Shown piece after piece: positions 49,562 through 60,991 of a stretch of DNA of 64,000 nt. A program made the position numbers and the translations under genes. The notes beneath the pieces were generated by a model that was given only the letters and a program-made list of their open reading frames with translations, was not told the DNA's origin and searched no databases. Within the stretch, counting starts at the first letter, position 1. Each line of letters begins with the position of its first letter. Location of the stretch: contig NZ_CP024011.1 in assembly GCF_002688565.1 (NCBI RefSeq), positions 248,001 to 312,000 on the forward strand, read 5' to 3'. Source of the DNA: Acinetobacter sp. LoGeW2-3. Its GTDB lineage: Bacteria > Pseudomonadota > Gammaproteobacteria > Pseudomonadales > Moraxellaceae.

Positions 49562-50845
49562 ATGACGACGCGTTTAAAGTCATTTATCGACATCGCTCCT
49601 GATTCAGATTTCCCTTTAGAAAACCTGCCTTATGGTATTTTCAGTGATGAGCAAAACGTCCAGCCACGTGCCGGGGTGGCACTCGGAGAATGGGTTGTGG
49701 ATCTGGGAGTATTGGAAGAAAAGGGTTATTTAAAGCTAAAAGAAGGTCAGCAATTTTTTAATCAGCCAACCTTGAATGCTTTTATTGAGTCGGGTAAAGC
49801 CAATTGGTCTAAAGTACGTACGGAATTACAAAAGTTACTCTCAGCCGATCATGCCGAATTGCGTGACAACAAAGAGCTACGTGATCAGGTTTTCTTGAAA
49901 CAGTCAGACGTCAAAATGCATCTGCCAGTCTATATCCCGGGCTATACCGACTTTTATTCATCGAAAGAACATGCCACTAATGTCGGCTGTATGTTCCGCG
50001 ATCCGAAAAATGCACTGTTAGCCAACTGGTCAGAACTTCCAGTCGGTTATAACGGCCGTGCCAGCTCCGTAATTGTCAGCGGTACAGAAATCGTACGCCC
50101 ATCAGGACAGATCAAATTACCGGATTCTGATCGTCCAGTTTTTTCAGCGTGCCGCAAACTCGACTTCGAACTGGAAACCGGCTTTATTATTGGCAAGCCA
50201 AATAACTTAGGCGAGCCCATTGCGATTGAAAATGCTTGGGATCATATTTTTGGCATGGTGCTATTCAATGACTGGTCTGCACGTGATCTGCAACAATGGG
50301 AATATGTACCGCTAGGTCCATTTAACGCCAAGACTTTTGCCTCTTCGATCTCGCCATGGATCGTAACCATGGAAGCGCTGGAACCATATAAAACCAGTTC
50401 ACCTGCTCAAGAGCCAAAACCTCTGGCTTATCTGCGTGAAGATAACAGCAGCAATAGCTATGACATTAACCTGTCGGTTGAAATTCAGCCTGAACATTCA
50501 GACCAGGCTGATGTCATCTGCGAAACCAATTTCAAATATATGTACTGGTCGATGGCACAGCAGCTGGCTCATCACACGATTGCAGGGTGTAATGTTCAGG
50601 TCGGTGATCTGATGGGTTCAGGCACAATTTCAGGCCCTACGCCAAATTCTTATGGTTCATTACTGGAAATCACCTGGAATGCAACCAAGCCGCTGACTTT
50701 GTCGAATGGTGAACAACGCACCTTCATTCAGGACGGCGACACCGTGATCATGAAAGGTCATTGTGAAAAAGAGGGTCTGCGTATCGGTTTCGGTGCTGTG
50801 AGCGGCAAAATCTTGCCAGCGATTGATTTCGGTTTTACTGAATAG
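49562..50845 (+). CDS. fahA: Fumarylacetoacetase
   Basis: Hydrolase of fumarylacetoacetate to fumarate and acetoacetate, 427 residues, the size of full-length FAH. Two-domain layout: N-terminal SH3-like domain (LPYGIFSDEQNVQPRAGVALG) and catalytic FAH domain with YTDFYSSKEHATNVG (catalytic His), LDFELETGFIIGKPN (metal Glu) and NDWSARDLQQWEYVPLGPF (metal Asp), and GDLMGSGTISGP. First gene of fahA-maiA-VOC-CoA-transferase. Confidence 0.95.
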   Translation: MTTRLKSFIDIAPDSDFPLENLPYGIFSDEQNVQPRAGVALGEWVVDLGVLEEKGYLKLKEGQQFFNQPTLNAFIESGKANWSKVRTELQKLLSADHAELRDNKELRDQVFLKQSDVKMHLPVYIPGYTDFYSSKEHATNVGCMFRDPKNALLANWSELPVGYNGRASSVIVSGTEIVRPSGQIKLPDSDRPVFSACRKLDFELETGFIIGKPNNLGEPIAIENAWDHIFGMVLFNDWSARDLQQWEYVPLGPFNAKTFASSISPWIVTMEALEPYKTSSPAQEPKPLAYLREDNSSNSYDINLSVEIQPEHSDQADVICETNFKYMYWSMAQQLAHHTIAGCNVQVGDLMGSGTISGPTPNSYGSLLEITWNATKPLTLSNGEQRTFIQDGDTVIMKGHCEKEGLRIGFGAVSGKILPAIDFGFTE

Positions 50846-50859
50846 TCCGGGGTGAAATC

Positions 50860-51504
50860 ATGACCATGCAACTGTATACCTATTTTCGGAGTTCGGCCGC
50901 TTACCGGGTTCGTATTGCGCTCAACCTGAAAGGACTCGAAGCAGAACATATCCCGGTTCATCTGGTGAACAATGGCGGCGAACAGCATAGTGAAACATTT
51001 CGTCGGGTCAATCCGGGTGAGCTGGTCCCTGCCTTAATTGAAGATGATTTCACGCTGACCCAGTCGCTCAGCATGATTGAATATCTGGAAGAAAAATTTC
51101 CGGAAACTCCCCTGTTGCCCGAGGATTTGCAACAGCGTGCGCTGATTCGGGCCTTCAGTCTGAATATCGCTTGTGACATTCATCCACTCAACAACCTGCG
51201 TGTACTTCAGTACCTTAGCAAAACCCTGAATGCCAGCGACGAACAGAAAACTGAATGGTACAGACACTGGGTTATCACCGGTTTAAAAGCACTTGAAGCT
51301 CAATTAACGCTTTCAAATGGCCAATTCTGTTTTGGAGATCAGCCTAGCCTTGCAGATTGCTGCCTGATTCCGCAAGTGTATAACGCTAAACGTTTCAACA
51401 TCGATCTTTCAGATTTTCCGAAAATTGAATCGATTTATGAATATTGCAATTCACTAGACGCATTTCAAAAAGCTGTACCTGAAGCGCAGCCCGATGCAGC
51501 ATAA
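50860..51504 (+). CDS. maiA: Maleylacetoacetate isomerase
   Basis: Zeta-class glutathione transferase, 214 residues. YFRSSAAYRVRIALNLKG is the zeta-class active-site motif (SSxxxRVRIAL), NPGELVPALIEDDFTLTQSLSMIEYLEE binds glutathione, and the helical domain with SLADCCLIPQVYNAKRFN follows. Converts maleylacetoacetate to fumarylacetoacetate for FahA. Starts 14 bp after fahA. Confidence 0.95.
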   Translation: MTMQLYTYFRSSAAYRVRIALNLKGLEAEHIPVHLVNNGGEQHSETFRRVNPGELVPALIEDDFTLTQSLSMIEYLEEKFPETPLLPEDLQQRALIRAFSLNIACDIHPLNNLRVLQYLSKTLNASDEQKTEWYRHWVITGLKALEAQLTLSNGQFCFGDQPSLADCCLIPQVYNAKRFNIDLSDFPKIESIYEYCNSLDAFQKAVPEAQPDAA

Positions 51505-51524
51505 GAATATATAAGGATATAACC

Positions 51525-52100
51525 ATGACCATTCAAATCGAAAAAATTCACCATGTCGCCTACCGCTGTAAAGATGCCAAAGAAACCGTGGAATGGTACA
51601 AAAAGAACCTGAACATGGACTTTATCCTGGCTTTTGCTGAGGATCATGTACCGTCTACCAAGGCTTTCGACCCGTATATGCATCTGTTTTTAGATGCAGG
51701 CAATGGCAATGTGTTGGCCTTCTTTGAACTGCCCACCCAACCGGAAATGGGCCGCGATGAAAATACCCCGAAATGGGTGCAGCATATCGCCTTAAAAGTG
51801 AAGGATCGTCAGGCACTGGTTCAGGCCAAAGAGCATCTGGAAGCCAATGGCGTAGATGTACTGGGCATTACCAATCACGGCATTTTCCATTCAATTTACT
51901 TCTTCGATCCAAATGGCCACCGTCTGGAACTGGCGTATGATGATGAAAAAGCATCGCAAAAAATTGCCATGATTACCGAAGAAATGAAATATGACATGCT
52001 GGAACAATGGAGCAAAACCAAACGCGCGCCTTCACATACCCACTTCCTGCATGCAGATGAATTAGACCACAGCGCTCGCGAAGCCAAGATGGACGCTTGA
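51525..52100 (+). CDS. VOC-family protein, candidate ring-cleavage dioxygenase
   Basis: A 191-residue vicinal-oxygen-chelate protein: two beta-alpha-beta-beta-beta modules with metal-ligand-type residues His10, Glu68, His87 and Glu135, spaced like those of glyoxalase I (5, 56, 74, 122 in E. coli), then a helical C-terminal tail of about 50 residues. It lies 20 bp after maiA and 21 bp before the CoA-transferase genes, with an AAGGATA ribosome-binding site, so it belongs to the tyrosine pathway operon. The homogentisate 1,2-dioxygenase (cupin-type HmgA) expected in this operon is missing, and VOC folds include extradiol dioxygenases, so it may open the homogentisate ring. An accessory role is the alternative. 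Confidence 0.8.
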   Translation: MTIQIEKIHHVAYRCKDAKETVEWYKKNLNMDFILAFAEDHVPSTKAFDPYMHLFLDAGNGNVLAFFELPTQPEMGRDENTPKWVQHIALKVKDRQALVQAKEHLEANGVDVLGITNHGIFHSIYFFDPNGHRLELAYDDEKASQKIAMITEEMKYDMLEQWSKTKRAPSHTHFLHADELDHSAREAKMDA

Positions 52101-52121
52101 ATTTTAAGATAAGGATTTCTG

Positions 52122-52823
52122 ATGAATAAAGTCGTTGCCAATGCTCAGGAAGCTTTAGCGGATATCGTGGCAGATCATCAAATGCTCGCCGTTGGCGGAT
52201 TTGGTTTATGCGGTATCCCTGAAGCACTCATTGACGCTTTAAAAAATACTGGTGTGATTGGCCTGACCTGCATTTCTAATAATGCCGGTGTGGATGATTT
52301 TGGTTTGGGCAAATTGCTGCAAACCAAGCAGATCAAAAAAATGATTTCTTCTTATGTCGGTGAAAATAAAGAATTTGAACGCCAATATCTGAATGGTGAA
52401 CTGGAAGTGGAACTGACTCCTCAAGGTACACTGGCAGAAAAACTGCGTGCTGGCGGTGCTGGAATTCCTGCTTTCTACACTCAAACAGGTGTCGGCACAT
52501 TGGTTGCCGAAGGCAAAGAAGTCCGTGAATTTGAGGGTAAAGAATTTATCCTGGAAAAATCATTAACCGCAGACGTGGCATTGGTTAAAGCCTATAAAGC
52601 GGATAAGGCTGGCAATCTGGTCTTCCGTAAGACTGCGCGTAATTTCAATCCTGAATGTGCCATGGCCGGAAAAATCACTGTGGCTGAAGTTGAACAGGTT
52701 GTAGAGATTGGTGAACTTGATCCGGATGATATTCATCTACCTGGAATTTATGTAAACCGAATCATCGTCAATGCTTTACCGGAAAAGCGCATTGAGCAGA
52801 TGACCTTAAAGGCAGGAGCATAA
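52122..52823 (+). CDS. 3-oxoacid CoA-transferase subunit A
   Basis: Alpha chain of a two-subunit CoA-transferase, 233 residues: [16 protein letters not shown] glycine loop, [15 protein letters not shown], and [18 protein letters not shown]. It is the ScoA/AtoD type. In this operon its likely substrate is the acetoacetate released by FahA, converted to acetoacetyl-CoA with succinyl-CoA as donor. Confidence 0.92.
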
Positions 52824-52825
52824 TC

Positions 52826-53473
52826 ATGGCTTGGACTCGAAATGAAATGGCTCAGCGTGCGGCACAGGAACTTGAAGATGGTTTCTATGTCAATCTCGGT
52901 ATTGGCTTACCAACACTGGTAGCCAACTATATTCCAGAAAATATCAACGTCTGGCTCCAGTCTGAAAATGGTCTGCTAGGCATTGATGAATTCCCGACTG
53001 CAGAAACAGTTGATGCAGACCTGATCAATGCCGGTAAACAGACAGTCACTGCTCGTAAAGGTGCAGCTTTCTTCTCAAGTGCTGAATCCTTTGCCATGAT
53101 TCGCGGGGGTCATGTCAATATCGCAATTTTAGGCGCGATGGAAGTCTCCGAAACAGGTGATCTGGCTAACTGGATGATTCCGGGCAAGAAAGTCAAAGGT
53201 ATGGGCGGTGCTATGGATCTAGTGGCAGGTGTGCAGAAAGTCGTAGTGCTAATGGAGCATACGGCGAAAGACGGTTCCCCAAAAATTGTTCCTCAATGTA
53301 CCTTGCCCCTGACCGGTAAAGGTGTCGTCAACCGAATCATTACGGATCTCGGTGTTATGGATATTACTTCACGCGGAGTGTTTCTGATAGAACTCGCTCA
53401 AGATGTCACGCTGGAACAGATCAAAGTTGCGACTGGAGTGGAGCTGATTACGGATAGACTTGAGGCTGCCTGA
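52826..53473 (+). CDS. 3-oxoacid CoA-transferase subunit B
   Basis: Beta chain, 215 residues, 2 bp after the alpha chain. Catalytic Glu in [26 protein letters not shown] and [19 protein letters not shown] are family motifs. Together with the A chain it completes tyrosine breakdown to central metabolites. Similar in layout to pcaIJ but not identical, so the two pairs are paralogues with different 3-oxoacid substrates. Confidence 0.92.
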
Positions 53474-54130: not shown

Positions 54131-55048
54131 CTAACTGTAATAAGAGATTCTTTTCTTTGAGAATCTCTCGAGTTGCTTCAAGAACCCTTCAAAATAATCT
54201 TTCTGCTTTTCTTCACTTCTATATCCTGCATATAAGGTTCGGCGTAATCCTTCAGGTGAAACACACTCTAAACGACGCGACGTAACCCACCCCTTCTTTT
54301 CATATTCATTTACCACCCAATCTGGCAATGCTGCAATCCCCCGACCACTTGCAACAAGCTGGATCAACATTTGGGTTAAGTCGGTAGTACGGATTTGCTT
54401 TGGCATGATGTTCTCTGGAATAAACAAACGTGACATGATATCCAATCGATGCTTGTCTACTGGATAAGTGATCAGGGTTTCTTCTGCCAGTTCTTGTACC
54501 GTAATCTCTTCGGCACGTACCAACGGATGTGTATTAGATAAAACTAGCCGAGATTCATACTCAAAAATTGGGAAATATTCGATTCCCTTCATTGCTATTG
54601 GATCAGCAGTAATTAGCAGATCAAACTCTCCTGTTTGCAACAGCTCATGTGGATTAGCTTCAAAACCGGAAGCAAAATCTAAATCAACATCAGGATATTG
54701 ACTACGGTACTGATTCAAAAGTGGCATGAGCCAATCGAAACAACTATGGCACTCTGAGGAAAAAACAATGCGACCTGTCTGCCCATGAACAATACGGGTA
54801 ATGTCACTTTGTGCTATTTGAACTTGTGGCAATACCTCATCGGCCAATTTCAATAGACGTAAACCCACATTAGAGAAACTGATAGGACGTGTACGACGAT
54901 TGACCACTTCTACACCAAACCATTGATCTAGCTCTCGCAACTGGTGAGATACAGCCGAAGGAGTCAGACATAGGTCACCTGCTGCTGCAACCAATGAACC
55001 GTGCTCTCTCAAGGCTGTCAGTGTTTTTAAATGTCGTATTTCTATCAT
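54131..55048 (-). CDS. LysR-family regulator, MetR-like
   Basis: A 305-residue LysR protein: N-terminal HTH (IEIRHLKTLTALREHGSLVAAAGDLCLTPSAVSHQLRELDQWFG) and a periplasmic-binding-like effector domain. The whole-length resemblance is to MetR, the homocysteine-responsive activator of methionine synthesis genes (FSSECHSCFDWLMPLLNQYR and GRGIAALPDWVV are MetR-like). ATG at 55048 has GGGA upstream; the earlier TTG at 55063 is not needed. Its closeness to the methionine synthase genes supports a methionine-regulatory role. Confidence 0.85.
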   Translation of the reverse strand: MIEIRHLKTLTALREHGSLVAAAGDLCLTPSAVSHQLRELDQWFGVEVVNRRTRPISFSNVGLRLLKLADEVLPQVQIAQSDITRIVHGQTGRIVFSSECHSCFDWLMPLLNQYRSQYPDVDLDFASGFEANPHELLQTGEFDLLITADPIAMKGIEYFPIFEYESRLVLSNTHPLVRAEEITVQELAEETLITYPVDKHRLDIMSRLFIPENIMPKQIRTTDLTQMLIQLVASGRGIAALPDWVVNEYEKKGWVTSRRLECVSPEGLRRTLYAGYRSEEKQKDYFEGFLKQLERFSKKRISYYS

Positions 55049-55131
55049 GTAAATCCCAAACAATAACTATAATGTCAGAAAAGCCCACACTGAGTGAGCC
55101 TGTTCTTCATATCAAATTAATTGAATATCTC

Positions 55132-55932
55132 TTAACTCAATCCTTTAAATATGAAAAAGCATCCAACGATACTTAACAATACCGCAAAACATTTTTTCAG
55201 CATTTGCGGTGATAAAGCATGTGCTGTTTTTGCACCCAACTTAGCTGTAAAGAAACTCATCAGGCTAATGCCTAAGAATGCATAAGTATGTACATAGCCA
55301 ATACTGTTGGGCACAGCAGCATGTGCTTTCATCCCAAAAATCATAAAGCCTAAAGCACCAGCAATCGCAATGGGTAAACCACAAGCGGCAGATGTTCCCA
55401 CTGACTTTTGCATGACGACGCCATAACGGTTGAGATACGGGACGGTTAAACTGCCACCACCGATCCCAAAAATAGCTGAAGCCACCCCAATCACTGAACC
55501 TGCAGCCACCTGCTTACCGGTTGAGGGCAACGTTCTGCTTGAGTCGACAGCCTTTTTAGCCCCCATGAACATGCTATATGCCACCCAAATCAAGAATAAA
55601 CCAACGATGAGTTGAAGATGTATTCCTGAGAGCCATCCTGCAATCGCCGCACCTGCAAAACAGCCAATTGCCATCGGTGGCGCCAGATTTTTAAATACCG
55701 ACCATATCACTGCACCATTTTTATGGTGTGCCATGAATGAACTGATTGATGTCACAACAATGGTGGCTAATGAGGTTCCTAATGCCAAATGCATGATCAC
55801 ATCAGGACTGTAGTCCATCTGAGTAAAAACAATAAAGAGTAATGGGACGATGATCGTTCCACCACCGACACCAAAGAGACCAGCCGCAAATCCTGCAAGC
55901 GCCCCGATGACTAAAAAAATAATAAGTTCCAC
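55132..55932 (-). CDS. TauE/SafE-family membrane transporter
   Basis: A 266-residue membrane protein with about 8 hydrophobic segments, and the family's duplicated glycine-rich motifs GLFGVGGGTIIVPLL (near residue 20) and AIFGIGGGSLTVPYL (near residue 160). TauE/SafE proteins are proposed exporters of sulfite or organosulfonates. Start is GTG at 55932 with AGGATATC upstream. Placed among methionine-synthesis genes, it may move a sulfur compound linked to that module; this is inference. Confidence 0.85.
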   Translation of the reverse strand: MELIIFLVIGALAGFAAGLFGVGGGTIIVPLLFIVFTQMDYSPDVIMHLALGTSLATIVVTSISSFMAHHKNGAVIWSVFKNLAPPMAIGCFAGAAIAGWLSGIHLQLIVGLFLIWVAYSMFMGAKKAVDSSRTLPSTGKQVAAGSVIGVASAIFGIGGGSLTVPYLNRYGVVMQKSVGTSAACGLPIAIAGALGFMIFGMKAHAAVPNSIGYVHTYAFLGISLMSFFTAKLGAKTAHALSPQMLKKCFAVLLSIVGCFFIFKGLS

Positions 55933-55976
55933 GATATCCTGACTTTTAAAGGATTGAATATTGAAGCAATGAACGG

Positions 55977-56471
55977 TTAAACCGTTTCCAGTTGACCGAC
56001 CTGATGATAGGCACGATTAAAATAGACCAGGCTTTCCTCTTGCTGGCTTTGTTTGATGGCTAATACACGACATAAGAAAATGCTATGTGTGCCAACATTT
56101 TTAATCTCTTCTATCTTGCAATCAAAACTTACCAAAGCATCTTCTAAAATCGGAGCACCTGTTTTGAGTGTGGTCCAACACCCAAGTTTGAAGCGGTCTT
56201 CAGAATTGAATTTGCTTGAAGCAAAAGCATTGGAGATATGTTCATGCTGTGTGCTGAGTACATTCACAGATAGCACTTTATTTTCAATAAAATGTGCATG
56301 AGAACGAGAGGATTGATTCATACAAACCAGCAATGTCGGCGGTGTATCGGTTACGCTACATACCGCTGATGCAGTAAAGCCATGCATCCCTGCTGTCCCT
56401 TGTGTGGTTATTACATTCACAGCAGTCGTCAACAAAGACATAGCGTTTCTAAAATCTGTTGCTTCAATCAT
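55977..56471 (-). CDS. Flavin reductase-domain protein
   Basis: A protein of about 164 residues of the HpaC/FRP-DIM6 flavin-binding group: AMSLLTTAVNVITTQGTAGMHGFTASAVCSVTDTPPTLLVCMNQSSRSH near the N-terminus, VSFDCKIEEI and the HSIFLCRVLAI segment. These proteins use NAD(P)H to make free FMNH2 for an oxygenase. Start could be 56471 or 56480. It lies 98 bp downstream of the methionine synthase gene on the same strand, so it may supply reduced flavin to the oxygen-dependent MesD/MesX reaction. Confidence 0.83.
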   Translation of the reverse strand: MIEATDFRNAMSLLTTAVNVITTQGTAGMHGFTASAVCSVTDTPPTLLVCMNQSSRSHAHFIENKVLSVNVLSTQHEHISNAFASSKFNSEDRFKLGCWTTLKTGAPILEDALVSFDCKIEEIKNVGTHSIFLCRVLAIKQSQQEESLVYFNRAYHQVGQLETV

Positions 56472-56568
56472 CTCTTTCATCTCAAATGTATATATCACGT
56501 GGTGATGCTGAAAGCAGGACAAATGATCTAGCTACTATTTGCCCTGCTTAGCTTCAGACTACGTTTGA

Positions 56569-57597
56569 TTATGCCTCTAGTTCTTTACGAACAATGGCAG
56601 CACCTGCACTTAACGCTTCAAGCTTGCCACGTGCAACATTACGAGATAAAGGTGTCATACCACAGTTGGTTGAAGGATAAAGCTTGTCTGCATCGACGAA
56701 CTGAAGTGCTTTACGCAATGTGTTTGCGACTTCTTCAGGAGTTTCTATCTGATTGGTAGCCACATCAATCGCACCCACCATCACTTTCTTGCCACGAATC
56801 AATTCAATCAGATCCATCGGTACACGTGAGTTTTGGCACTCTAAGGACACAATATCAATCTTGGATTTTTGCAGTTTCGGGAAAGCTTCTTCGTACTGAC
56901 GCCATTCTGAACCCAAGGTCTTTTTCCAGTCTGTGTTGGCTTTAATACCATAGCCATAGCAAATGTGAACGGCTGTTTCACATTTCAGACCTTCAAGCGC
57001 GCGTTCCAGAGTTGCCACACCCCAGTCATTCACTTCATCAAAGAACACGTTAAATGCAGGTTCATCGAACTGGATGATGTCTACTCCTGCTGCTTCAAGT
57101 TCCAGAGCTTCCTGATTCAGAATCTTGGCAAATTCCCAGGCCAGTTTTTCACGGCTCTTATAGTGACCATCGTACAATGTATCAATCATAGTCATTGGAC
57201 CAGGTAATGCCCATTTGATCGGTTGATCGGTTTGACTGCGCAGGAACTTGGCATCCTCAACAAAGACAGGCTGTTTACGAGAAACTTCACCGACCACTGA
57301 AGGTACGCTGGCATCGTAACGGTTACGGATACGAACGGTTTCACGCTTGTTAAAATCCACACCGTCAAGGTGTTCAATAAAGGTGGTCACAAAGTGCTGA
57401 CGGGTTTGTTCACCATCGCTGACAATATCAATGCCTGCTTGACGTTGTTCATGTAAAGATAACTTCAGTGCATCACGTTTCGCCTCAAGTAGTTCTTCAC
57501 CTTCAAGTTTCCACGCAGACCACAGCTTTTCAGGTTCAGCAAGCCAAGATGGTTTCGGTAAGCTGCCTGCTGTTGAGGTCGGAAGTAAAATTGCCAT
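56569..57597 (-). CDS. mesD: Core methionine synthase MesD
   Basis: A 342-residue protein equivalent to the catalytic C-terminal half of MetE without its N-terminal folate-binding half. Zinc-ligand-type residues His211 and Cys213 (AVHICYGYG), Glu253 (SLECQNSR) and Cys312 (STNCGMTPLSRN) are present; IQFDEPAF binds homocysteine. Paired with a DUF1852 gene it fits MesD, a family shown genetically to need neither methyl-folate nor cobalamin, but DUF1852 and oxygen. ATG at 57597 (AAGAAGA upstream) is chosen; the longer reading overlaps the DUF1852 gene. The methyl donor is unknown. Confidence 0.9.
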   Translation of the reverse strand: MAILLPTSTAGSLPKPSWLAEPEKLWSAWKLEGEELLEAKRDALKLSLHEQRQAGIDIVSDGEQTRQHFVTTFIEHLDGVDFNKRETVRIRNRYDASVPSVVGEVSRKQPVFVEDAKFLRSQTDQPIKWALPGPMTMIDTLYDGHYKSREKLAWEFAKILNQEALELEAAGVDIIQFDEPAFNVFFDEVNDWGVATLERALEGLKCETAVHICYGYGIKANTDWKKTLGSEWRQYEEAFPKLQKSKIDIVSLECQNSRVPMDLIELIRGKKVMVGAIDVATNQIETPEEVANTLRKALQFVDADKLYPSTNCGMTPLSRNVARGKLEALSAGAAIVRKELEA

Positions 57598-57665
57598 AAC
57601 TAATCTTCTTTCTTTAAATTCGCAAATCTGTAAATATCTTGAGTAGCTTAAGCAGCTTGGTTTTT

Positions 57666-58646
57666 CTAGGCTGTTTCTACTTTGAAATTGGCAGCCCATT
57701 CATCAAGGATGTGTTTATATGACTTGATGAAGTTTTCTTCAGTCCATTTGCCTTGTTTCACAGCTAACTGACCACGTTCAACTCGGTCATAGACAACACG
57801 AGTCAATGAATAATCGCCATAGCTCAAGCTTGGTTGATACACCACACCTGCAGGTGAATTGGTATTGTAGATTTCAGGGCGATAGATGCGTTGGAAGCTT
57901 TCCATAGTGCTAATGGCACTGATCAATTCAAAATCGGTGTAATCACGTAACAAGTCCCCTGCGCAGTAGAATGCAAGTGGCGCGTTCGCACCTCGAGGCT
58001 TGAAATAACGTACGCTTAAACCCATCTTGGCGAAGTATGCATCAGTACGTGAATAATCATCATTGGTGTATTCCACACCTAAGATCGGATGCACATTTGC
58101 AGTTTGATAATAAGTTTTCGTCGTTGACACACTTAAGCAGATCACAGGCTGTTTTTTGAATTCAGCTTTAAACACATCAGAATTCACTAAATGTAAATAA
58201 AGCTTGCCGTGCAGGTCGCCAAAGTCTTCTGGCATTTCATTAAACTTGCACCCTAAAGCTGGTAGTACCACGCTAAAGTCATAATCACGCACATAAGACG
58301 AGAAGCTGTTGCCAATCATGCCTTCAATACGTTCACCCGTTTGATGGTCAATGATGGTACTTTTTAAGGTTTCAATAAATGGAAACGTTTTTCCGTTGCC
58401 TTCGATATCAATTTCAGCAGAGATAATATCGATTTCAAGTGAATAGCGATCACCTTTTGGATTATCTACCGTTGCCAAGCTATTAAAACGGTTATTGATC
58501 ATCGCCAAGGTACGACGCAGGTTTTCTTCACGGCTTTCCCCGCGTGCCAAATTGGCAAAGTTCGTAGTCAAACGTGTGCTGTTTGCTGGCTCATAGTTCT
58601 CATCAAAACGAATACGTTTAATTGAACATGCAAATTTGTTACTCAT
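57666..58646 (-). CDS. mesX: DUF1852 protein MesX, partner of MesD
   Basis: A 326-residue DUF1852 protein with no recognised catalytic motif. It starts MSNKFACSIKRIRFDENYEPANSTRLTTNFANLARGES-like and has the segments GDRYSLEIDIISAEIDIEG, HPILGVEYTNDDYSRTDAYFAKMGLSVRYFKP and YRPEIYNTNSPAGVVYQPSLSYGDYSLTRVVYDRVE. No membrane or signal segment is seen. Published mutant work links DUF1852 to MesD-dependent methionine synthesis in aerobic bacteria. It precedes mesD by 68 bp in an apparent operon. Confidence 0.9.
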   Translation of the reverse strand: MSNKFACSIKRIRFDENYEPANSTRLTTNFANLARGESREENLRRTLAMINNRFNSLATVDNPKGDRYSLEIDIISAEIDIEGNGKTFPFIETLKSTIIDHQTGERIEGMIGNSFSSYVRDYDFSVVLPALGCKFNEMPEDFGDLHGKLYLHLVNSDVFKAEFKKQPVICLSVSTTKTYYQTANVHPILGVEYTNDDYSRTDAYFAKMGLSVRYFKPRGANAPLAFYCAGDLLRDYTDFELISAISTMESFQRIYRPEIYNTNSPAGVVYQPSLSYGDYSLTRVVYDRVERGQLAVKQGKWTEENFIKSYKHILDEWAANFKVETA

Positions 58647-58831
58647 GGAGATTCACAACCCTAAATTTTTAAAATAAAAGCAAATTTTCTGAATGGACTT
58701 ATTTAAGCGTGAATTTCTAAATGAGTAAAACGATATAAATTCAGTTAAAGATGAAGGAAATTCACTTTAAGGTATCCTCCAAACGATTTACTAAATATTT
58801 TCCTAAATATCGATCTCTACCTGAAAAAACA

Positions 58832-58859
58832 GAAACCTCCCCAGTCTGGGGAGGTTTTC
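58832..58859. terminator. Bidirectional terminator
   Basis: GAAACCTCCCC and GGGGAGGTTTTC form a long stem around AGTCT with A- and T-rich ends. It lies 20 bp past the TonB receptor stop. Confidence 0.85.
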
Positions 58860-58879: not shown

Positions 58880-60991
58880 TTAGAACCTGTATTTCAGAGA
58901 GAAACGATAACTACGGTCTTCTGCTGGGTGTATATGCTGATCTACAAACCCTTCACGGCTATCTGAAGCTGCATCGCACTCAGGTGTAGAATGTTCATTG
59001 GCTAAACAGGACTCATACAGGTATTCAATATCATTCACTTTACGGTTGAACAAATTCAGCACATCCAGTTTTGCCTCTAGATTTTTAGAAATCTCGTAGC
59101 CAGCTTGTAGATTGACCAAAGTTGATGCACTTGATTTCACACTGTTATCTTCAATCAGTGGTCTTGCACCAAAGTAACGCATTCTTAAGCCAATGCTCCA
59201 TGGTTGTGCAGGTGTGTAAATAATTCCAGCGGATGCAGTTCTATTAATTGCACCAGGAATGTACCTCCCTTCCTCAGCATGGTCTTTATATCGTGCTTTG
59301 GATAAGGCCAAATCAACATCTACCATCCAATTGTCATTTGGCTTATAGAAGTTACTCACCTCAATACCTTGACGACGACTCGGACGGCTCGCTTCAGTTG
59401 TACCCGCGTCACCCACAAAGAGTAACTCCGAATCTGAATCCAATTGCCACAATGCAATGGTGGTATTTAAATTTGGCAACCACTGTCCACGAACGCCAAG
59501 TTCCGCATTTTTCGTTCTTACCAGTGGATCTACGGCATCTATTTGTTCTAGATAACTTTCATCTCGCGGATCTGGATTGATTTTAATGGTCGTCCCACGT
59601 GCATCATTGCTATGAAAACCGTAAGCATAATTCACGTAATATTCGGTATTCGCCCATGGACCAAAAACCAAATTCAGTTTTGGACTGAAAATGTGGTCAT
59701 CTGTATGACCCGAGTTTACTGCTAAATCTGAATCTACATCGAAATTGAAGTAGTCTGCACGCAGACCTGCAATACTCCTGAACCATGGTGTCCATTGCAC
59801 CTGATTCTCTGCCCAAACACCGACATTATATTCTTTCACCTGATCTTCACGGATGGTATTAAAACGTTGGCGACCTTGTGTCTGATAGAGACCTAATCCA
59901 TCTATATCATCAAAGCGTGTAGATGCGCCTATTCGGTTAATCACCAACCGATCATCCCAGTGACTGTGCCAATTATGCTGCACAGCTCCACCAAAGATAT
60001 AACGATCCTCAGCTTGTTCAAACTGATCGCCACGCTCTACATCCATAAGATAATAAGTAAAATTGGAGAACAGGTTTAATTTGGAATGAATGCCATATAG
60101 ATTGAACTGTGTCTGTTGATCGTCATGCGTTACCAGCTTTTCAAAGGCAATGGATGTACGGGTGGTCTCTCCACCATCACTTGGTTCGAGCGTACCAAAA
60201 CGTCCAATTAAGCCCTGTTCAACTGCACGCTGAGCCACTTGATCTGTCGAATCCCAGCTAGAATCGTAATGATTGCCAGTTAAGCTCCAGCCATTCTTTT
60301 CATCACCACGTGTGTATTTTAATAAATAGTTTTGTTTTTTTAGATTTTGCTCTCTATCCCATGGGCCATCATTGCTTAAACCTTCTACGGCACTAAGCAA
60401 AGTACCATTTGCAATTTCTGCCGCACCCGCAGCGATGACACGTTTGTAATCGTGTGAACCTAATGTCATTTGTACAAATGGACGATCAAGTGTGCTGATG
60501 GTTTTAAGTTTAACACTACCTGCCGAGGCAAAATCACCATCAGCCGCCTCATTAGCGCCTTTATGATAATGCAAGTTTTCAATAAGTTCAGGGATAACAA
60601 AATTCATGTCTGTATATCCCTGTCCATGTGCATGGGTCACCATATTTAATGGCATACCATCGACTGAGGTCGCGAAGTCAGTGCCATGATCGAGGTTAAA
60701 ACCGCGTAAGAAGTATTGATTGGCTTTACCATCGCCACTGTGTTGGGTCACAATTAAACCCGGTACAGTTTCTAAAACTTCAGCAGGTCGAAGCAAAGGC
60801 CGATTTTTGAGTTGTTCTTTAGTGACCGTTCCTTGGGAAGCTGAATATGCAATACCGTTTTGGCTTTCAGAATCTGCATGTGCAAAAATGTGAATGGTTT
60901 CAAGTTGGGGATAAAGTGTTCCACCAGCAAAAGCAAAATTAAATAAATTCCCAGTGGCAAAAAGTCCGATGGTTAATGCTTTTAATTTCAT
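58880..60991 (-). CDS. TonB-dependent outer-membrane receptor
   Basis: A 703-residue receptor. Signal peptide MKLKALTIGLFATGNLFNFAFA, plug domain from about residue 45 (RPAEVLETVPGLIVTQHSGDGKANQYFLRGFNLDHGTDFATSVDGMPLNMVTHAHGQGYTDMNFVIPE) and a beta-barrel ending in YRFSLKYRF, the expected C-terminal Phe. The THAHGQGYTD segment with histidines is found in a receptor group that includes metal-linked members, but the ligand is not certain. No TonB-box lineage or Fur site is obvious. Bounded by terminators, it appears monocistronic. Confidence 0.88.
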   Translation of the reverse strand: MKLKALTIGLFATGNLFNFAFAGGTLYPQLETIHIFAHADSESQNGIAYSASQGTVTKEQLKNRPLLRPAEVLETVPGLIVTQHSGDGKANQYFLRGFNLDHGTDFATSVDGMPLNMVTHAHGQGYTDMNFVIPELIENLHYHKGANEAADGDFASAGSVKLKTISTLDRPFVQMTLGSHDYKRVIAAGAAEIANGTLLSAVEGLSNDGPWDREQNLKKQNYLLKYTRGDEKNGWSLTGNHYDSSWDSTDQVAQRAVEQGLIGRFGTLEPSDGGETTRTSIAFEKLVTHDDQQTQFNLYGIHSKLNLFSNFTYYLMDVERGDQFEQAEDRYIFGGAVQHNWHSHWDDRLVINRIGASTRFDDIDGLGLYQTQGRQRFNTIREDQVKEYNVGVWAENQVQWTPWFRSIAGLRADYFNFDVDSDLAVNSGHTDDHIFSPKLNLVFGPWANTEYYVNYAYGFHSNDARGTTIKINPDPRDESYLEQIDAVDPLVRTKNAELGVRGQWLPNLNTTIALWQLDSDSELLFVGDAGTTEASRPSRRQGIEVSNFYKPNDNWMVDVDLALSKARYKDHAEEGRYIPGAINRTASAGIIYTPAQPWSIGLRMRYFGARPLIEDNSVKSSASTLVNLQAGYEISKNLEAKLDVLNLFNRKVNDIEYLYESCLANEHSTPECDAASDSREGFVDQHIHPAEDRSYRFSLKYRF

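Follow-up and report, generated by a model that had tools for sequence, protein, structure and literature searches.

The core methionine synthase MesD depends on its partner protein MesX and on O2, and it requires neither MetF nor B12 (Price et al. 2021, PMC7857596). As reported there, mesD and mesX from Sphingomonas koreensis are by themselves enough to restore methionine synthesis in Escherichia coli, and E. coli without metF is rescued by mesD and mesX as long as air is supplied. The same paper already raised a flavin mechanism and pointed to flavin reductase neighbours (ACIAD3522 in Acinetobacter baylyi, Ga0059261_2931 in S. koreensis). The 2021 study did not settle where the methyl group for MesD comes from, nor does the later literature we found, and no biochemical characterisation of MesX was found in the open-access literature. 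MesD-bearing strains are described as growing under N2O (PMC13059711). Here we describe a module of this kind in Acinetobacter sp. LoGeW2-3 (contig NZ_CP024011.1, positions 248,001 to 312,000 of the forward strand; these 64,000 nucleotides are called the window in the following). With MesD/MesX of A. baylyi (ACIAD3523/ACIAD3524) and S. koreensis it shares the two protein families, their pairing and the kind of reductase neighbour; it differs in that a tauE and a metR-type gene are added in the window and a second, diverged module is present in the genome.

Our analysis leaves next to no doubt that the operon serves O2-dependent methionine synthesis, and control of the operon by MetR is highly probable. 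On balance, we read the locus as a MetR-activated, B12-repressed, O2-dependent methionine synthase operon independent of folate and cobalamin, whose reductase probably feeds reduced flavin mononucleotide (FMN) to MesX. A preliminary description of the window had already named the module, its need for O2 and its independence of methyl-folate and cobalamin; these points hold and were published before (PMC7857596), the published facts on MesD and MesX had been quoted correctly, and all five genes described as sharing one strand are present where they had been placed, on the minus strand. The observation is real, and its main idea is already in print. New here are the second module, a census of the reductases with repeated capture, genomes without a match to the reductase family PF01613, and control by MetR and B12, Moraxellaceae included. 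The question is thereby narrowed: the minimal conserved unit is mesX-mesD, and the reductase is optional yet repeatedly present.

The pairing of mesX and mesD is nearly invariable. MesX is encoded in 44 of the 398 Pseudomonadota genomes of a phylum sample, this genome among them, and each of the 43 loci taken from the remaining 43 has mesD after mesX. The same order is seen in 62 of 63 Moraxellaceae loci (genome_contigs); Psychrobacter submarinus, one of whose loci has a broken mesD and fre, and Acinetobacter sp. S54 contribute two loci apiece to these 63. One locus survey kept 54 of 60 loci, six having lost mesX to the open reading frame (ORF) filter. In P. submarinus a full-length mesX precedes a broken mesD and reductase remnants (L062 10001-12680), the complete locus being L063. 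In strain S54 one mesX, for which no adjoining mesD or reductase was found, lies beside a gene of luciferase-like look (L059 9995-10972), and a complete mesX-mesD-fre is located at L060. Genome G082 holds broken mesX and mesD fragments (L163 5760-6659) plus a full-length pair (L128). Among 72,556 plasmid records, 210 contain a MesX match, some of the records being as large as a chromosome. Two mobilizable Acinetobacter plasmids carry mesX-mesD-flavin reductase (L164 15001-17671, L165 12001-15838), with a gene resembling methylenetetrahydrofolate reductase (MTHFR) near both and a LysR gene on one. Phage matches come from two identically named records (Acinetobacter phage MD-2021a) and possibly represent host DNA.

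MesD resembles the cobalamin-independent methionine synthase MetE in its catalytic domain PF01717 and in the conserved pattern of H-x-C, Glu and Cys. It differs from MetE in lacking the folate-binding N-terminal domain (Pfam detects PF01717 alone) and in scoring at most about 84 bits against solved full-length MetE chains; the closest solved structure is 3RPD. Residues H211, C213, E236 and C312, the putative zinc ligands going by MetE biochemistry, are invariant in 124 aligned rows (window included; 4 of 127 loci dropped), and a pairwise alignment to 1XDJ seems out of register there. Of the 326 positions of MesX, 84 do not vary across 127 rows (window included; 1 of 127 loci dropped); they include H146, H186, C170, E92, E192 and E258, and H146 and H186 are the only invariant histidines.

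The second mesX-mesD-fre-metR module, overlooked in the preliminary description, is located at G000:C1:2691837-2695565 beside a CDF cation transporter gene and has no tauE. Protein identity between the two modules is 96% for MesX, 95% for MesD, 90% for Fre and 93% for LysR. Synonymous divergence of the gene pairs amounts to 0.65-1.6, and the ratio of nonsynonymous to synonymous divergence (dN/dS) to 0.02-0.08 (fre 0.077). These values point to an old pair, and all four genes of the second module, the reductase included, look to be under purifying selection. Before mesX, the nearest 130 bases of the two modules are identical at 109 positions and the next 130 at 35.

In Moraxellaceae the flavin reductase follows mesD in all 62 mesD-bearing loci, in one of them as broken remnants. 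Reductases directly after mesD were also found outside this family, in Celeribacter (L069), on a Thioclava plasmid (L169), in Pseudomonas abyssi (L077), in Halopseudomonas (L079) and in genome G316 (L147), and these fall on other branches of the reductase tree. The tree was built from 58 sequences: the window, 14 other Moraxellaceae, five further mes-linked sequences (L069, L169 partial) and 38 background sequences from 40 stretches (L170 and L147 contain one and the same gene, and L204 gave no domain match). The label 'mes-linked' requires four changes on this tree, at least three of them forced by well-supported branches, and a single origin is recovered in 0 of 200 bootstrap trees, with the caveat that long branches meet. 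The best NCBIfam models differ as well, all scores being under the cut-off: RutF in Acinetobacter, HsaB in L077 and L147, StyB in L069 and HpaC_Thermus in L169. Three PF01613 lineages thus occupy the slot directly after mesD. Read as repeated capture, these different lineages favour a real need for reduced flavin that is usually met by other cellular reductases. The sequence evidence as a whole suggests that the flavin-reducing enzyme is a local addition to the mes genes. The arrangement recalls two-component flavin monooxygenases with RutF/HpaC-type reductases, where a short-chain PF01613 reductase likewise stands beside a putative oxygenase; unlike in those systems, the MesX sequence gives no match to a known flavin oxygenase and the reductase is usually encoded away from mesX.

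Several observations weigh against a role of the reductase in the system. In the phylum sample PF01613 lies near mesX in 3 of 44 MesX genomes (this genome, G074, which is also from Moraxellaceae, and G316). No PF01613 match was obtained in G228 and G342 (other flavin reductase families were not searched), and the one weak match in G348 has a stop inside. As 13 of 14 control genomes have PF01613, finding it somewhere in a genome is uninformative. E. coli requires just mesD and mesX (PMC7857596). The three changes on the tree might be one gain and two losses, and L177, a non-mes reductase of this genome, falls inside the Moraxellaceae mes group. MesX itself matches no other Pfam family (49-member search) and no solved structure (PDB profile search) beyond noise; flavin binding is putative, and the invariant H146, H186 and Glu192 fit a metal site equally well. 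A PF01613 reductase beside mesXD is not universal, and the link is optional but recurrent. The idea of a flavin-driven oxidation in the preliminary description, already present in PMC7857596, agrees with the three reductase lineages and with the B12 repression of both genes (see below); the conservation of the reductase beside mesXD, on which that description made the idea depend, holds for Moraxellaceae (62 of 62 loci) and fails in the phylum sample (3 of 44 genomes). As to the reductase being dispensable and not conserved, about half of this is found, because it is kept in Moraxellaceae and not beyond, and mesD and mesX alone restore E. coli. All in all, we lean slightly towards a supply of FMNH2 to MesX by this reductase.

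The next NCBIfam model after PRK15421 (MetR) gives the LysR protein 103 bits; we call it MetR-like, because its score of 252 stays below the curated cut-off of 382, which only 13 of the 44 MesX genomes pass (best scores from 720 down to 156 bits). Two strongly MetR-like genes exist in the genome, both in mes modules (252 and 248 bits), and the next match has 70 bits. Across three sets of MesX genomes, a MetR-like gene (E <= 1e-40) was found in 43/44, 50/50 and 28/28, the exception being G371. A MetR box, TGAATTTCCTTCA, lies before mesX at 58764-58752, behind a terminator-like hairpin, and a weaker copy with two mismatches (58731-58743) starts 21 bp further in. Because the hairpin separates mesX from the upstream TonB-receptor gene, mesX most likely begins its own transcript; terminator-like sites number 7 in the region against 4.2 expected from shuffles, which is weak taken alone.

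Upstream regions were scanned in 65 Moraxellaceae loci (240 bp) and 63 further ones (300 bp; these include two Moraxellaceae, L081 and L120, plus L078 and L161, apparently one genome) and compared with 100 dinucleotide shuffles. Boxes with at most one mismatch occur in 59/65 Moraxellaceae regions (shuffles: mean 19.5, maximum 27) and 47/63 further regions (mean 12.6, maximum 22), exact boxes in 21/65 (mean 1.1, maximum 4) and 18/63 (mean 0.65, maximum 3). The box is positioned 107-137 bp before mesX in 54 of the 59 box-bearing Moraxellaceae regions, and pairs of boxes 20-21 bp apart were seen in 22/63 further regions (mean 0.03, maximum 1) and 10/65 Moraxellaceae regions (mean 0.21, maximum 2). 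Since the upstream regions are mutually related, the shuffles measure enrichment and not independence. In contrast to mesX, the MTHFR-like gene is never preceded by an exact box in the 17 loci compared and only twice by one with a single mismatch, and its control by MetR was rejected.

Leyn et al. 2014 (PMC4239095) listed PF08908-metE2 members in the MetR regulon and gave the consensus TGAA-N5-TTCA; a MetR-type regulator and this box upstream of mesX are common to that regulon and the present locus. MetR was reported absent from the four Moraxellaceae genomes of that study. In contrast, a MetR-like gene was found in 61/61 genomes of loci L003-L065 and also in Moraxella bovoculi (L081), and most mesX upstream regions are boxed. 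These Moraxellaceae therefore do have one, which argues against the family lacking MetR. The metR-type gene was rejected as a general member of the Acinetobacter operon, being downstream in 4 of 55 loci with room, though every searched genome has one somewhere. Against MetR control stand the absence of a box from 6 of 65 Moraxellaceae regions, including L020 despite a metR-type gene in the locus, and the missing background for the presence of MetR, MesX-free genomes not having been counted; MetR binding at the box is a prediction. The MetR-like call of the preliminary description is nevertheless well supported by the box upstream of mesX and by the MetR-like gene in MesX genomes.

A response to B12 is seen in published expression data. 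In Acinetobacter baumannii, addition of B12 lowers mesX (ABUW_3198) by a log2 value of -8.3 and the flavin reductase ABUW_3196, two locus tags away, by -2.5 (PMC12892962), so that both are B12-repressed. In a transposon study of the same species the genes with a fitness loss in the lung include metR ABUW_1599 (-2.24), mesD ABUW_3197 (-1.79) and mesX ABUW_3198 (-1.38), which stand in the list close to metZ, metW and further amino-acid genes, apparently within a lung-only block (PMC12604733). For ABUW_1599 an identity of 47% is given to a Pseudomonas aeruginosa swarming regulator, for which a MetR paper is cited (PMC5382811). The main text of the transposon paper does not mention the reductase ABUW_3196, a further point against its participation. 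In 22 other genomes, picked partly for lacking a MetR box or for showing a B12-box core, the Rfam scan placed a cobalamin riboswitch directly before mesX in two, G371 (L162 6409-6600) and Frigidibacter (L078 9655-9853; L161, apparently the same genome, has it too). G371 is the sole MesX genome of the 44 without a MetR-like gene at threshold. No riboswitch was detected near mesX in the other 20 genomes, nor in the window and both loci here; the only cobalamin riboswitch of this genome in the scan precedes a BtuB-like gene outside the window (L089 16897-17040). With expression apparently tied to MetR and B12, these results indicate when the pathway is used.

Among the other explanations, the best placed makes MesX a non-haem iron oxygenase of the 2-His-1-carboxylate type, with the flavin reductase keeping the iron reduced or acting as a side helper. 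The two sole invariant histidines plus E192, and E92 among other acids, would suit such a site, no known flavin fold or oxygenase match was recognised in MesX by Pfam and PDB profile searches, and the reductase is absent from the locus in most lineages, two of 44 genomes having no PF01613 match at all. It is at odds with three separate reductase lineages in one slot after mesD, and no metal-site motif was matched to a known family. The sequence of MesX by itself cannot decide between flavin and iron, and we regard the iron enzyme as unlikely. A second explanation, which we rate as quite unlikely, takes the reductase as a co-regulated neighbour that has a different function, such as serving another FMNH2-dependent monooxygenase, retained by operon inertia in Moraxellaceae while MesX needs neither reductase nor flavin. 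The lack of conservation beyond this family, the sufficiency of mesD and mesX in E. coli and the weaker B12 response of the reductase would all fit, as would the sharing of another flavin reductase, MsuE, by the flavin enzymes of dimethyl sulfide use in A. baylyi (PMC13352529); the maintenance of fre at a dN/dS of 0.077 in a second module that has no tauE speaks against it, and so do the different reductase lineages at the same position. That the methyl group still comes from folate, as methylene-tetrahydrofolate (THF) reduced by flavin on MesX or as methyl-THF from a nearby MTHFR-like/DUF5981 protein, is very improbable: mesX does have an MTHFR-like gene fused to DUF5981 at a distance of about 6 kb here, in its neighbourhood in 12 of 80 genome_contigs loci and also on two Acinetobacter plasmids, and no more than 2 kb away in two genomes of one genus from another family, and the genes adjoin in 3/3 sampled genomes that have both, but E. 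coli without metF is rescued, only with air, 41 of the 44 MesX genomes have no DUF5981 match, and the MetR box is rare before the MTHFR-like gene.

We return to a reductase that supplies reduced FMN to MesX. According to this scheme, homocysteine would build up when B12 for MetH is lacking, and the MetR-type regulator, for which homocysteine is the presumed effector here, would activate mesX via the box at 58752-58764. With O2, MesX would form or carry a methyl group that stems from a common metabolite; its transfer to homocysteine would fall to MesD, a zinc core methionine synthase. The adjacent short-chain flavin reductase would most likely give reduced FMN to MesX, FMNH2 being the putative cofactor. 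Such a reductase would be helpful and replaceable by other cellular flavin reductases, which would explain why most lineages do not keep it adjacent. E. coli possesses flavin reductases of its own. A more specific version, in which MesX is the new-fold oxygenase half of a two-component flavin enzyme that oxidatively makes a transferable methyl group from a central metabolite, with an interchangeable reductase captured beside mesD about three times, is offered only tentatively. If true, it would amount to a biological way of making methyl groups that does without one-carbon folates, cobalamin and radical S-adenosylmethionine chemistry. The genomes without a PF01613 match are natural tests.

Table 1. 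Features of the mes locus in the window (all on the minus strand).
Feature	Position	Strand	Evidence
mesX (PF08908/DUF1852), putative oxygenase partner of MesD, 326 aa	57669..58646	-	Pfam 529 bits (curated cut-off 25; profile positions 1-323 of 323 covered)
mesD, core methionine synthase without folate domain, 342 aa	56569..57597	-	PF01717; PRK09121 699 bits, cut-off 392
fre, short-chain flavin reductase (PF01613, RutF/HpaC-like), 164 aa, start inferred	55977..56471	-	Pfam 133 bits; best NCBIfam model RutF 209 bits, under cut-off 254.75
TauE/SafE family transporter, 266 aa	55132..55932	-	PF01925, 173 bits
metR-type LysR regulator, 305 aa	54131..55048	-	NCBIfam PRK15421 (MetR) 252 bits
MetR box TGAA-N5-TTCA, 118 bp before mesX start	58752..58764	-	consensus from PMC4239095
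Intrinsic-terminator-like hairpin, between upstream TonB-receptor gene and mesX	58833..58857	-	terminator scan

The start of mesD is most likely the ATG at 57597, because the listed ORF start at 57699 overlaps mesX; the resulting 342 aa agree with the second mesD copy of the same genome. The ORF of fre is listed from a TTG at 56522, and 56471 is the more likely start, since plasmid relatives are annotated at 164 aa. The nearest solved structure of Fre is 2R0X, a 'possible flavin reductase'. The TonB-dependent receptor gene upstream of mesX (58880-60991, same strand) lies beyond the terminator-like hairpin, and in Acinetobacter sp. HR7 (L003) such a gene is likewise located upstream of mesX. 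Within the 4.5 kb downstream of mesX, TauE is found in 31 of the 59 Moraxellaceae loci that offer enough room, and it occurs near mesX on the opposite strand in 9 of 42 loci (L121-L162); the link of this transporter to mesX recurs.

The MTHFR-like/DUF5981 gene belongs to a stretch close to the mes operon and mostly past the window end (G000:C1:311491-316894; L089 11492-16895), which also encodes a weak core MetE-like protein (PF01717, 26 bits) and, judged from the translations, QueH-like and BtuB-like proteins, the latter preceded by the cobalamin riboswitch. DUF5981 shows no clear excess among MesX genomes, being present in 3 of 44 of them, next to mesX in all three, against 16 of 354 other genomes. 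On the Thioclava plasmid (L169 2065-8361) mesXD and the short reductase lie near genes for a GTP-binding protein, HisI and a TGS-domain protein. A Zur-like palindrome between the GTP-binding protein and HisI genes makes a link to zinc limitation possible on this plasmid; no such palindrome was found in the stretch around the second module, beside the CDF gene. In the window, the plus strand at 49562-53473 carries, by the look of the translations, fumarylacetoacetase-, maleylacetoacetate isomerase- and dioxygenase-like genes together with a two-subunit CoA transferase.

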